Shown here one piece after another: positions 40,743 to 45,687 of a DNA stretch of 47,325 nucleotides. The stretch comes from Anaerosomatales bacterium (GTDB lineage: Bacteria > Actinomycetota > Coriobacteriia > Anaerosomatales > Anaerosomataceae). The stretch covers positions 1 through 47,325 of the forward strand of contig JASEEU010000010.1 in assembly GCA_030019445.1 (NCBI GenBank), in the 5' to 3' direction. The translations under genes and the position numbers were made by a program. Numbering within the stretch: the first letter of the stretch is position 1; every line of letters starts with the position of its first letter. A model generated the notes under the pieces. The model was not told where the DNA came from, ran no database searches, and saw nothing but the letters and a program-made list of their open reading frames with translations.

Positions 40743-40981
40743 TCGCTTCCACCCGGGTCTGTGGTTGCGGGTGCCTCGGCACCCAAGTCCAGGGCAGGTG
40801 CGGCCGAAAGGACCCACGTAAGCCGGAGGGCCTTGTGCCTCCGTGTGAGCATGGCGCACCTTAGGGGTAAGTCGTACCGTCCGCCGCGAGGCGGGCGAGA
40901 GGGCCACTAGTGAGATAGCATCAAGCGACAGTCCCGGTACGCGAGTGTGGGGCCAAAGACCAGGTCAGCCGGGTGGGAGCG
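40743..40981 (+). ncRNA. Structured RNA of about 240 nt between comF and the ABC operon; possible raiA RNA
   Basis: The 5' and 3' ends close with a 12-bp helix (40744-40755 with 40970-40981, one G-U), stacked on GGTCTGTGG (40756-40764) paired with CCAAAGACC (40953-40961) with one mismatch. Inside are AGGTGCG/CGCACCT (40796-40802 with 40855-40861) enclosing CGGAGG/CCTCCG (40824-40829 with 40838-40843). There is also a CTCG-loop hairpin at 40769-40784, and CGTACCG/CGGTACG (40873-40879 with 40935-40941) enclosing CCGCC-GCGA-GGCGG (40881-40894). No protein-coding frame fits. Position next to comF, with hpf further down, recalls the raiA RNA motif described in Actinobacteria and Firmicutes. A riboswitch-like leader of the ABC operon is the main alternative, since the next start codon is only 23 bases past the closing helix. 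Confidence 0.7.
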
Positions 40982-41003: not shown

Positions 41004-41846
41004 GTGCGAGCGCTACGCATCATCGCCGCCATGCTCGTGGCGGCCGTGCTCATCGCAGGTGCAGGCTGCAAGAAGGAGGCCGAGGAGCCGGCGCTCGAGC
41101 CTAAGATCGCGCCGCCCGCGATCGCCGAGGCCGGCGTCCTGAGGGCCGGCGTCGACCTCGACTACCCGCCGTTCGCGGGCACGGTCGACGGCGAGACGGT
41201 GGGCATCGACGTCGACGTCGCGGCAGCGATAGCCGAGCGGCTCGGGCTCGAACTCGAGCTTGTCGACGTGAAGCCGGAGGGTCTTGGCGCGGCGCTCGCC
41301 GAGGGCGACGTGGATATCGCGCTCGCAGCGGTTCCGATCGCCGACGCGGTCGTCTCTGACGTCGCTGTGGCAGGCTCCTATCTCGTCGACGGCCCGGCGA
41401 TCTTCTCGATGGTCACGACCGCGAGCGCCGAGCCGACGCCGACCGCCGCATCGCTCGGCGGTCGCCGCGTTGGCGTGCAGACCGGGACGCTCGGCTACTG
41501 GCGCCTGCAGGACGACTACGGCTCCGGCTTCGCCACCGAGTTCGAGACGCTCGAGCAGGCGTTCGCGGCGCTCGCTGCGGGGGAGATCGACGTCGTCGTG
41601 TGCGACGCTGTCGTCGGCGGCTACCTCGGCCGCGACTTCCCCGACGTGCGGCTGCGCGGGCAGTACGGGACGGCCGCGCCCCTCGGCGTGACCGTTGCCC
41701 CGGAAGCCACCGAGCTCGAGCAGGCCGTCCGGGAGACCCTCGATGCGCTGGCCGCCGAAGGCGTTCTGGACACCATCCGCCGGAAGTGGGTCGGCGAGCT
41801 TCCGCGGCTCGAGGTGCCGTCGAGCGAGGTCACAGCCACGCCCTGA
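41004..41846 (+). CDS. Amino-acid ABC transporter substrate-binding lipoprotein, normal domain order
   Basis: A 280-residue solute-binding protein of family 3 (PF00497). The GTG at 41004 follows GAAGGGAG and begins a lipoprotein signal (RALRIIAAMLVAAVLIAGAG before Cys); the longer frame would read through the structured RNA. Lobe I starts VLRAGVDLDYPPFAGTVDGE, and lobe II follows with GGRRVGVQTGTLGYW and IDVVVCDAVVGGYLG. It ends in the usual VLDTIRRKWVGELP. The set suggests uptake of a polar amino acid or cystine-like ligand; specificity cannot be read. A 12-bp hairpin separates it from the second binding protein. Confidence 0.88.
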   Translation: MRALRIIAAMLVAAVLIAGAGCKKEAEEPALEPKIAPPAIAEAGVLRAGVDLDYPPFAGTVDGETVGIDVDVAAAIAERLGLELELVDVKPEGLGAALAEGDVDIALAAVPIADAVVSDVAVAGSYLVDGPAIFSMVTTASAEPTPTAASLGGRRVGVQTGTLGYWRLQDDYGSGFATEFETLEQAFAALAAGEIDVVVCDAVVGGYLGRDFPDVRLRGQYGTAAPLGVTVAPEATELEQAVRETLDALAAEGVLDTIRRKWVGELPRLEVPSSEVTATP

Positions 41847-42041: not shown

Positions 42042-42920
42042 ATGGGCAAGAGCAAGAAGTTGCTCGCACTTCTGCTGACGCTCGCGCTCGTCTTCAGCGC
42101 CTTCGCACTCGTCGGCTGCAACGGCGATGACGGCGAAGACGGCGGTGAGGACGGCGGCGGGACCGAGGCCGAGGCCACGATCCAGGGCGTCGACGATCTG
42201 GGCGAGGGCGACAAGGTCGGTGTGCAGTCCGGTACCACGGGTGAGGCGTGGGCACGCGAGAACCTCGAGCCGAACGGCGTCGAGGTCGTGCCGTACGATG
42301 ACATCCTCCTGGCGTTCTCGGCCCTGCAGGCCGGCGACGTCGATGGCGTCATCAACGACCTCCCGATCTCTCAGGACGTCGTGAAGGACGAGACGCGCGG
42401 ACTGGTCATCGTCGAAGAGATCCAGACGGACGAGACCTACGGCTTCGCGTTCAACAAGAGCAACAACTCGCTGCGCGACGCCGTGAACTGGGCGCTGGCC
42501 GAGGTCATCGCCGACGGCACGTACGACGAGGTCTACGAGAAGTGGTTCGGTGCCCCCCCGATGTCGATGCCTGAGCCTGAGGTGACGGTGGCCGAGAAGC
42601 CCGCCGACATCCAGACGCTGCAGGACGGCAAGATCATCGTCGGCTCGGACACCGCGTTCCCGCCCTTCGAGAACGTCGAGGGTGGCGAGGTCGTGGGCTT
42701 CGACGTCGACCTGATGAACGCGATCGGCGAGAAGCTCGGCCTCGACGTCGAGTTCAAGAGCTACAAGTTCGACGCGCTCATCACGGGCGTGCAGGCGGGT
42801 ACCGAGTTCGACATGGTCGCTTCGGCCATGACGATCACCGAGGAGCGCAAGCAGTCGGTCGACTTCTCGAACCCGTACATCAACTCGAACCAGTCGCTCG
42901 CGGTCAAGGCTGCCGAGTAG
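42042..42920 (+). CDS. Circularly permuted amino-acid ABC substrate-binding lipoprotein
   Basis: A 292-residue lipoprotein (GGAGGAGG before the ATG; signal peptide with ALVGC lipobox at about 27-31, then an acidic Gly/Asp/Glu linker). The family 3 binding-protein halves are in reverse order. Residues 47-170 are the second lobe and C-terminal closing segment (DKVGVQSGTTGEAW, VVPYDDILLAFSALQAGDVD, DGTYDEVYEKWFG). After a linker, residues 197-292 are the first lobe (KIIVGSDTAFPPFENVEGGE, EFDMVASAMTITEERKQSVD, FSNPYINSNQSLAV), where a normal protein begins. Each half is well conserved and occurs once, so it looks like a true permutation, perhaps from a tandem duplicate that lost its outer halves. 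It is next to the permease and ATPase of the same system. Confidence 0.85.
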   Translation: MGKSKKLLALLLTLALVFSAFALVGCNGDDGEDGGEDGGGTEAEATIQGVDDLGEGDKVGVQSGTTGEAWARENLEPNGVEVVPYDDILLAFSALQAGDVDGVINDLPISQDVVKDETRGLVIVEEIQTDETYGFAFNKSNNSLRDAVNWALAEVIADGTYDEVYEKWFGAPPMSMPEPEVTVAEKPADIQTLQDGKIIVGSDTAFPPFENVEGGEVVGFDVDLMNAIGEKLGLDVEFKSYKFDALITGVQAGTEFDMVASAMTITEERKQSVDFSNPYINSNQSLAVKAAE

Positions 42921-43005: not shown

Positions 43006-44292
43006 GTGAATCCCAAGCTCCGAAGGACCATCTGGTACGCGGCCAACGTGACGGTATTCCTCGTGCTTGCCGTCCTGGTGCTGACGATGGTCGGTCCCGC
43101 TCGCCTGCAGTTCGAGCGGCCCGCGGACCGGGGAGAGACAGGTCTCGTCGCTGACACGTACATCGCTCCACCCGCTCGCGACACCATCACCATCGGGAAG
43201 CGGGGCAACGTCCGGATCGCGCAGGCCGAGATGGACGTCGAGGTCGGTGCGACGCTCGAGCGCGATCCCGCCGGTGGTGGGATGGACGACTCGGCGTGGC
43301 TGCTGTCCGCCGCCGAGACGAGCCCGACCCCGGTGCTGCTCAACGGGGAGCCGGTCGAAGGCACGCCCGCGGTCGAGGCGGGAGACGTCATCACCGTGGG
43401 CGGCGTGGATGTGACGTTCGACGGCAGCCGCCGTGGCGTCCTCGGCTTCCTGGACTGGTGGGAAGCGGGTCGCATCTCGCACCTGTTCGCGTCGCCTGAG
43501 GTATTCGCCGAGGCGTTCCCGATCCTGCTCGCTGCTTTCCCGGTCTCGCTCCTGGCGGTCCTCGTGTCGTTCAGCCTCGCCATTCCCGGAGGTCTGGCGC
43601 TCGCATTCATGAAGATGGCGCGTACGCGCTGGCTGCGATGGCCGGCGACCATGTACATCGACGTCATCCGCGGCACTCCGATCTTCTTGCAGATCCTGCT
43701 CGTCTTCTTCGGGTTGCCGCTGATGCCGCCGTGGCAAGCGCTCATCTCGGCGCTGCCCCAGCTCAACGACGCCGGACCTTTCGGCGTCACGTGGTCGCTC
43801 TACCTGCGCGCATTCGTCGTGCTGAGCTTCAACTCCTCGGCATACATGGCCGAGATATTCCGTGCCGGCATCGAGTCCATCTCCAAGGGACAGATGGAGG
43901 CGGCGCGCTCGCTCGGTATGAGCGCCCCGCAGGCGATGGCGTACGTCATCATCCCGCAGACGGTACGACGCGTCCTGCCGACGATGATGTCCGAGTTCAT
44001 CCTGTTGTTCAAAGACACGTCGCTGTTCGCTGCGGTGGGCATGGCCGAGATCATCCTGCGGGCGCGAGAGGTCGCGTCCTCTACGCTCAACGTCTCGCCC
44101 TACCTGCTTGCTGCAGGCTTCTACCTGATCATCACCATCCCGCTCGGCCGCTTCGTCCAGAACCTTGAGAACCGCCTTGCGCGGGCCGAGGGAGGAGGCG
44201 CCGTGCGCGATGAGCCGAAGGAGACCGACGTGCAGGTGCCCGGCCATGATGCCGGCGACGGGACAGAACCCGCCGTGCTGGAGAGGGGGTGA
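43006..44292 (+). CDS. Amino-acid ABC transporter permease with FHA-like extracytoplasmic insert
   Basis: A 428-residue permease of the HisM/GlnP family, much longer than the usual 220-250. GAGGAGG precedes the GTG at 43006. TM1 spans about residues 8-30 ([20 protein letters not shown]). Residues about 58-141 then form a beta-rich domain with FHA-like strand order: [15 protein letters not shown], a middle strand [27 protein letters not shown] and [11 protein letters not shown]. The transporter core starts near residue 160 with [19 protein letters not shown] and includes the ATPase-contacting EAA loop [20 protein letters not shown]. The C-terminal tail of about 35 residues is charged. The phosphothreonine-binding Arg and Ser-x-x-His of signalling FHA domains are not evident. 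It overlaps the ATPase gene by four bases. Confidence 0.9.
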
Positions 44293-45135: not shown

Positions 45136-45687
45136 ATGAAGATGATCGTGAAGGGGCGTCGCACCGACGTCACGCCGGCGATCCGGGAGTACGCTGAGGA
45201 GAAGATCGGCCGAGTAGCCAAGATCCTCGACAGCATGATCATGAGCGCGGACGTCGAGTTGACCACCGAGTCCAACCCGTCCATCCCAGAGAACCAGATC
45301 GCCGAAGTCACGGTCTACACCAAGGGTCACGTCATCCGTGCCAAGGAATCGGCATCAGACATGTTCGCCGCGATCGACCTCGTCAGCGAGAAGCTCGAGC
45401 GTCAGGTGCGCAAGTTCAAGACGAAGATCGTCGACCGGCACACCAAGGCTCCGTCGCTGCCGGAAGCGATCAGCATGGCCGCCGCCGAGGAGCAGCAGGC
45501 CGAGCGCGAGCCCGCCATCGTCAAGACCAAGCGTCTCGACGTGAAGCCCATGACCCCCGACGAGGCGATTCTGCAGATGGAGCTGCTGGGACACGATTTC
45601 TTCGTGTTCTCTTCGGCTGAGACCGAGGAGATCAACGTCCTCTATCGCCGGAACGATGGCGATTACGGCCTGATCGAGCCGTCGTAG
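45136..45687 (+). CDS. hpf: Ribosome hibernation promoting factor, long form
   Basis: A 183-residue protein. AAGGAGG seven bases before the ATG at 45136 fixes the start; the open frame further upstream overlaps the ATPase gene. The N-terminal S30AE/RaiA domain (about 1-100; MKMIVKGRRTDVTPAIREYA) binds the decoding centre of the small subunit. The C-terminal domain (about 125-183; IVKTKRLDVKPMTPDEAILQ, then LLGHDFFVFSSAETEEINVL and YRRNDGDYGLI) dimerises to give 100S ribosomes. This two-domain form is normal for Actinobacteria and Firmicutes. A strong terminator follows. Confidence 0.95.
   Translation: MKMIVKGRRTDVTPAIREYAEEKIGRVAKILDSMIMSADVELTTESNPSIPENQIAEVTVYTKGHVIRAKESASDMFAAIDLVSEKLERQVRKFKTKIVDRHTKAPSLPEAISMAAAEEQQAEREPAIVKTKRLDVKPMTPDEAILQMELLGHDFFVFSSAETEEINVLYRRNDGDYGLIEPS

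Follow-up and report, generated by a model that had tools for sequence, protein, structure and literature searches.

A circularly permuted family 3 solute-binding protein encoded beside an amino-acid ABC permease in the Anaerosomatales

Introduction

The defining feature of type II solute-binding proteins (SBPs) is a hinge of two strands between their two lobes. In the glutamine-binding protein GlnBP, the large lobe is assembled from residues 5–84 and 186–224 and the small lobe from residues 90–180, with the last helices of type II SBPs forming part of the large lobe (PMC13229503); the small domain of AncCDT spans residues 99–194 (PMC7683729). A natural rearrangement of an importer's binding lipoprotein has been described for TpMglB-2 (Tp0684) from Treponema pallidum, a circularly permuted glucose-binding lipoprotein assigned to “Type Ic / Cluster Bc”, for which tethering was raised as a possible reason for the permutation (PMC4990184). 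The open-licence full-text literature yielded this single precedent and no natural permutation of a family 3 SBP, and a PDB search returned no solved structure of a colinear permuted family 3 SBP, only the tandem substrate-binding domains (SBDs) of GlnPQ (PDB 6h30) spanning the equivalent junction.

Here we describe such a family 3 protein, encoded at positions 42042–42920 of a 47,325-nucleotide window of Anaerosomatales DNA. It resembles TpMglB-2 in being a naturally permuted binding lipoprotein of an ABC importer, and TpMglB-2 has kept both ligand binding and closure. The two differ in that TpMglB-2 has the type I (cluster B) sugar-binding fold, with only its N lobe reordered, its termini in the same lobe and a fourth crossing added, whereas the present protein has the type II fold of family 3, is cut in the small lobe just past the first hinge strand and has lost one covalent crossing. 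The “Type Ic” class (type I fold, permuted N lobe, fourth crossing) does not describe it. With the canonical proteins GlnBP, LAO, ArtJ and AncQR it shares the family, both lobes, the pocket residues and an operon with permease and ATPase genes; they differ from it in lobe order, in carrying the anchor on the large lobe and in having two covalent hinge crossings. The GlnPQ tandem, like the tandem protein L051 discussed below, has the same junction from a small lobe to the next large lobe but consists of two complete SBPs rather than one permuted SBP. Our reading, to which we assign a probability of roughly 85%, is that the protein is a functional, lipid-anchored amino-acid SBP serving an ABC importer that has a single permease gene, and that its chain underwent one circular permutation in the common ancestor of its clade.

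Chain order of the permuted protein

The open reading frame is exact and intact, running on the forward (+) strand, as do all features given below, from an ATG at 42042 to a stop codon at 42918–42920 and encoding 292 amino acids. The Pfam profile SBP_bac_3 (PF00497) matches it over both lobes (E = 1.4e-40; 138.5 bits against a cut-off of 26.4), in two stretches that break the canonical order of the family: profile positions 1–92, the start of the profile, fall at residues 198–290. Because each half matches the same Pfam family, annotation pipelines hide the permutation. NCBIfam and PDB matches identify residues 43–171 as the C-half of family 3 SBPs, and residues 193–290 correspond to the N-half of solved SBPs. 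Each half matches solved family 3 SBPs, AncQR being the closest among single SBPs (E = 5.7e-23 and 6.4e-22), and such highly significant values for both halves exclude a chance match. The profile and PDB alignments thus bear out the claim of a sequence-only reading of this DNA that the gene is a true circular permutation with each half present once.

Lobe boundaries were mapped through alignments from the limits published for GlnBP (PMC13229503) and AncCDT (PMC7683729). The chain begins with a lipoprotein signal peptide (42042–42119), read from the translation, whose lipobox LVGC (Cys26) is normal, as had been noted, with its Cys conserved across the permuted clade. A disordered spacer between the lipid anchor and the small lobe follows (residues 27–45, 42120–42176; pLDDT about 32–75). 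Next comes the small lobe (residues ~46–130, 42177–42431), which canonically lies mid-protein and is placed by the AncQR match from residue 108 on and by the AncCDT and GlnBP domain limits, and then the second hinge strand with the large lobe's C-terminal helices (residues ~131–170, 42432–42551), canonically the end of the protein, as placed by alignment and by model helices at 142–157 and 160–169. A new 22-residue linker (residues ~171–192, 42552–42617) connects what were the C- and N-termini of the canonical chain, as sequence comparison indicates. It leads into the first part of the large lobe (residues ~193–283, 42618–42890), which is canonically N-terminal and matches AncQR residues 10–104 and domain 1 of TmArgBP. 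The chain ends with the first hinge strand (residues 284–292, QSLAVKAAE, 42891–42917), which in canonical orthologs runs on into the small lobe and is here a free C-terminus.

The earlier description of second lobe first and first lobe last is therefore right in outline only: since the last helices of type II SBPs belong to the large lobe, the N-terminal half comprises the small lobe plus those helices, and the C-terminal half the remaining large lobe together with the first hinge strand. Canonical proteins build the large lobe from two separate segments; in the permuted protein these are contiguous.

Predicted fold, hinge and pocket

An AlphaFold2 model built with 21 orthologs as related sequences is a single two-lobed structure (mean pLDDT 86.5, pTM 0.78) in which only the signal peptide and spacer are poorly predicted and the linker is ordered (pLDDT about 88–91). 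The structure prediction proposed as a check in the sequence-only reading thus came out, in one confident model, in favor of halves that pack as one two-lobed protein. Model residues 43–173 fit the C-half of GlnP SBD1 (128 residues, 1.8 Å, Z 12.5), and residues 189–283 fit TmArgBP domain 1 (93 residues, 1.4 Å, Z 10.4). As expected for a permutation, sequential structure aligners gave no simultaneous superposition of both lobes on any family 3 SBP. In-sequence alignments over both lobes were obtained only with other SBP-fold families (4ntl: 178 residues, 3.2 Å, Z 10.5), in which the two lobes are pseudo-symmetric, and these are consistent with a packed clamshell.

The two covalent inter-lobe crossings of a type II hinge are not both present. 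The chain is cut about 9 residues past the first crossing, at a point that maps to GlnBP residue 96 by the published domain limits (PMC13229503), and the first hinge strand is still predicted (E284-289). The permutation moves the N-terminus and the lipid site from the large lobe to the small one and leaves one hinge strand as a free C-terminus; the folded surfaces of permuted and canonical proteins should be nearly alike. The new anchor point might, as the sequence-only reading proposed, change how the closed form presents itself to the permease. In the mechanism we propose, the permuted chain would fold into the same clamshell as a canonical SBP, its lobes joined by a single covalent crossing (about residues 128–131), with the C-terminal strand serving as the other hinge strand and the lipid anchor holding the small lobe. 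The open clamshell would close on a polar amino acid, of the arginine or glutamine type by its nearest relatives, and the closed protein would then dock on the dimer formed by its own permease.

Across the permuted clade there is no variation at the pocket residues D203, S63, G64, T65, T66, D106, S261, M263, T264 and R269. Two of them, R269 and D106, which grip the α-carboxylate and amino group, are the same in all 22 permuted and all 34 canonical orthologs compared, and we take them to be the equivalents of GlnBP R75 and D157. Four positions are unique to the permuted clade: W150 (42489–42491), found in 22/22 permuted and 0/34 canonical orthologs; I/V156 (42507–42509), found in 22/22 permuted orthologs where 31/34 canonical ones have K or R; S272; and M174. 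Residues W150 and I156 sit on the helix directly before the linker, and the linker probably packs over them.

Conservation and origin within the order

Relatives with the same chain order, a search for which had been proposed, do exist: colinear full-length permuted orthologs are present in 23 of the 69 genomes of the order, across 7 families and at 61–82% identity, and in most of the remaining genomes the locus is occupied by a canonical ortholog. Named records such as Coriobacteriaceae bacterium EMTCatB1 (BDLO01000001.1, L043) show the permuted form as well. Values of dN/dS between 0.07 and 0.20 across nine pairs indicate purifying selection on the permuted gene. One assembly (G025) shows both a canonical and a permuted allele (L150 and L173), on separate small contigs; it is 7% contaminated and probably a mixture.

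For a tree of the orthologs of this gene (SBPb, to distinguish it from the ordinary SBPa upstream), the lobes were put back into canonical order and realigned. A single branch separates the 22 permuted rows from all others (bootstrap 89, aLRT 84; found in 86% of bootstrap trees), within a larger grouping that includes the canonical proteins of G032, G042, G045, G056, G038 and G051. This gives moderate support to a single origin of the permutation within the order. At high stringency, no permuted SBP was found in 396 genomes of the same phylum outside the order, nor in 298 of the class. The 249 Pseudomonadota genomes searched at E 1e-34 contained no permuted SBP and the 201 Chloroflexota genomes searched at E 1e-40 only a tandem SBP, although, the profile being clade-specific, all of these results are lower bounds on spread.

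The linker points to how the permutation may have arisen. Canonical sisters have the C-end ...WFGA.PLSIP and the mature N-terminus ...EEPADLGTL.PGKIIVGSD, and the permuted linkers read ...WFGAPPMSMP...EKPADIQTL..GKIIVGSD, without the signal peptide and Cys. The linker thus starts as the canonical tail WFGA.PLSIP and ends as the canonical mature N-terminus PADLGTL.PGKI; the stretch from lobe 2 to GSDT is nearly fixed at 25–27 residues in permuted orthologs, and the PLSIP tail is absent from more distant canonical orthologs. These ends fit an origin by tandem duplication, fusion and trimming. An ancestral tandem duplicate of the SBP would have been fused in frame, copy 1 would have lost its first part and copy 2 its signal peptide and second part, and trimming would have left signal, small lobe, large-lobe helices, linker and large lobe.

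A single lipoprotein of 534 amino acids comprising two complete tandem SBPs (L1-L2-L1-L2) occurs in an Anaerolineae genome (L051/L177/L190, G656:C26), and L052 is likely similar, but truncated. A tandem of this kind is a plausible example of the intermediate that a permutation needs.

Independent permutations in other phyla

Searching Bacillota and Spirochaetota genomes with the permuted-SBP profile revealed further SBPs of L2-L1 order in 6 of 249 and 4 of 130 genomes, respectively. The earlier remark that natural permutation is unusual in this family holds as to rarity, but the event is recurrent, extending to these two phyla. The Bacillota proteins (L180, L181, L182/L183/L188 and L189) and those of the Spirochaetota (L193–L196) have the same swapped order and operon type, each adjoining a permease gene and also an ATPase gene where the contig is long enough to show it; they differ from the Anaerosomatales protein in having other origins and, between them, two further cut sites. 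The cut in L180, L181 and the Spirochaetota group is close to that in the 42042–42920 protein, that in L182/L183/L188 lies about 12 residues later (C-end ...STITGPENLK), and that in L189 is deeper in the small lobe (C-end ...GTTGDIAITKLIEGK). All three sites lie within the small lobe, so that in every case the N-terminus is transferred there from the large lobe. Such tolerated cut sites should be useful for building biosensors from family 3 SBPs.

On a 104-row tree that includes long branches, the permuted label must change 6 times, with 5 of these changes forced by starred branches; without the long rows and fusions it must change 4 times. A single origin for all permuted family 3 SBPs was rejected by the AU test (p 2e-75, the group having been named with the first tree already seen). 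At least three bacterial lineages have, by these sequence comparisons, rearranged family 3 SBPs independently, and L181 and L189, close on the tree with different cut sites, may represent two events.

Most permuted SBPs are lipoproteins. The Spirochaetota protein L195 apparently has no lipobox at the expected place, its signal ending VSA-KKK, so the lipid anchor would not be required for the permuted order. In Bacillota genome G1113, L219 (543 aa), L223 (522 aa) and the partial L225 are amino-acid permeases whose membrane domain is preceded by a fused permuted SBD.

The locus and exchange of its alleles

The order mtnA, AEC transporter, comF, raiA RNA, SBPa, SBPb, permease and ATPase is common to permuted and canonical genomes. 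In the window, the raiA RNA (RF03072, 157 bits; 40748–40977) occupies the gap between comF and SBPa, an ordinary-order family 3 lipoprotein with an unpermuted profile match (41004–41846). Directly downstream of the permuted gene lie an amino-acid ABC permease with an N-terminal extension (PF00528; 43006–44292) and an ABC ATPase (PF00005; 44289–45044), and this operon, as expected for a component of an ABC amino-acid importer, is kept in relatives. The raiA RNA was at the same position in 14/14 relatives tested. Beyond the ATPase gene lies a hibernation-factor-like one (about 45137–45687), so that the importer is bracketed by it and the RNA. A scan for sigma-70 promoters gave no match.

Both the ordinary binding protein and the unusual permease that had been noted beside the gene are present, but the permease extension does not track the permutation. 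Structure prediction places in it an FHA-fold domain (43087–43428), outside the membrane, with an added TM helix on one side of it and the core of the permease on the other; its Foldseek matches are all FHA-type (E about 2e-4), and the usual phospho-threonine Arg and Ser are seemingly not conserved. A link between permutation and this FHA-like extension was rejected: permuted G060 and G039 are without the extension and canonical alleles carry others, such as the one in L144, which matches DUF2808.

The permuted/canonical label changes 11 times (at least 8 forced) on the MtnA+AEC+ComF tree and 11 times (at least 5 forced) on the SBPa tree, compared with 2 changes for the permease membrane domain and 5 for the ATPase. 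The same pattern is seen within genera. Permuted G013 and canonical G018 are 94% identical in MtnA, 78% in SBPa and 88% in ATPase, versus 55% in SBPb and 56% in permease; for G008 and G016 the values are 87, 71 and 87% versus 56 and 52%. The permease tree places five canonical rows among permuted ones, with modest support and in mild conflict with the SBP tree. On the simplest reading, SBPb and permease would have been swapped as an allelic cassette between conserved neighbours, which suggests that the permuted SBP may need its own permease. Canonical and permuted orthologs at one locus in close relatives offer a natural matched comparison for studying hinge dynamics, anchoring and the pairing of SBP with permease. 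Elsewhere, a protein kinase-like protein of 593 aa (L164, G049:C23) carries a family 3 SBP sensor domain of canonical order, close in sequence to SBPb.

Alternative explanations

Nature has cut one crossing of the type II hinge several times and kept the protein in use, and what the cut contributes can be read in two ways. The permutation may be a harmless accident, with binding, docking and anchoring as in canonical proteins and nothing selected, a view to which we give slightly less than even odds. The pocket residues are identical to those of canonical orthologs, and the two allele types replace each other at one locus, as though roughly interchangeable at the organism level. Against neutrality stand the at least 4 label changes on the wide tree, with every cut in the small lobe, and the fact that exchange of the permuted SBP takes its permease along, though sequence divergence alone could explain the latter. 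More tentatively, and on balance doubtfully, selection could have favored permutation of type II SBPs on several occasions, as a change that shifts the anchor or permease fusion point off the large lobe, frees a hinge strand and alters closure or docking so that the permuted SBP suits its own permease; the permuted proteins would then form a type II subclass of several origins. The effect of hinge composition on closure has been named as an open comparison in recent work on GlnBP (PMC13229503).

The mixture of alleles across the order could also reflect loss rather than exchange, if an ancestor with both SBP–permease pairs gave rise to lineages that each kept just one of them. Both forms are indeed spread over several families, and G025 shows the two together on separate small contigs, but that assembly is the contaminated one and no other searched genome was seen to have both forms at the locus. 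Use of the same syntenic slot and the many label changes (11, at least 8 forced) likewise make loss unlikely relative to cassette exchange.

Domain swapping is known for Thermotoga maritima ArgBP, a member of the same family. With its lobes joined by a single covalent crossing, the permuted protein might do likewise, the shortened hinge making lobes of two chains pair so that the working unit would be a dimer. We consider this improbable: the model of one chain has high confidence (pTM 0.78) and its linker is ordered, and W150 and I/V156 suggest that the linker packs within its own chain.

Finally, our reading of a functional permuted SBP leaves practically no room for an assembly artefact or pseudogene or for a chimera of two damaged copies absent from relatives, the outcome that would have spoken against the sequence-only reading, since, although lobe order alone would suit a broken tandem pair, the gene is intact and colinear in 23 genomes of 7 families, is under purifying selection, groups on one branch and shows a conserved start, C-terminus and linker length (25–27 residues between lobe 2 and GSDT).
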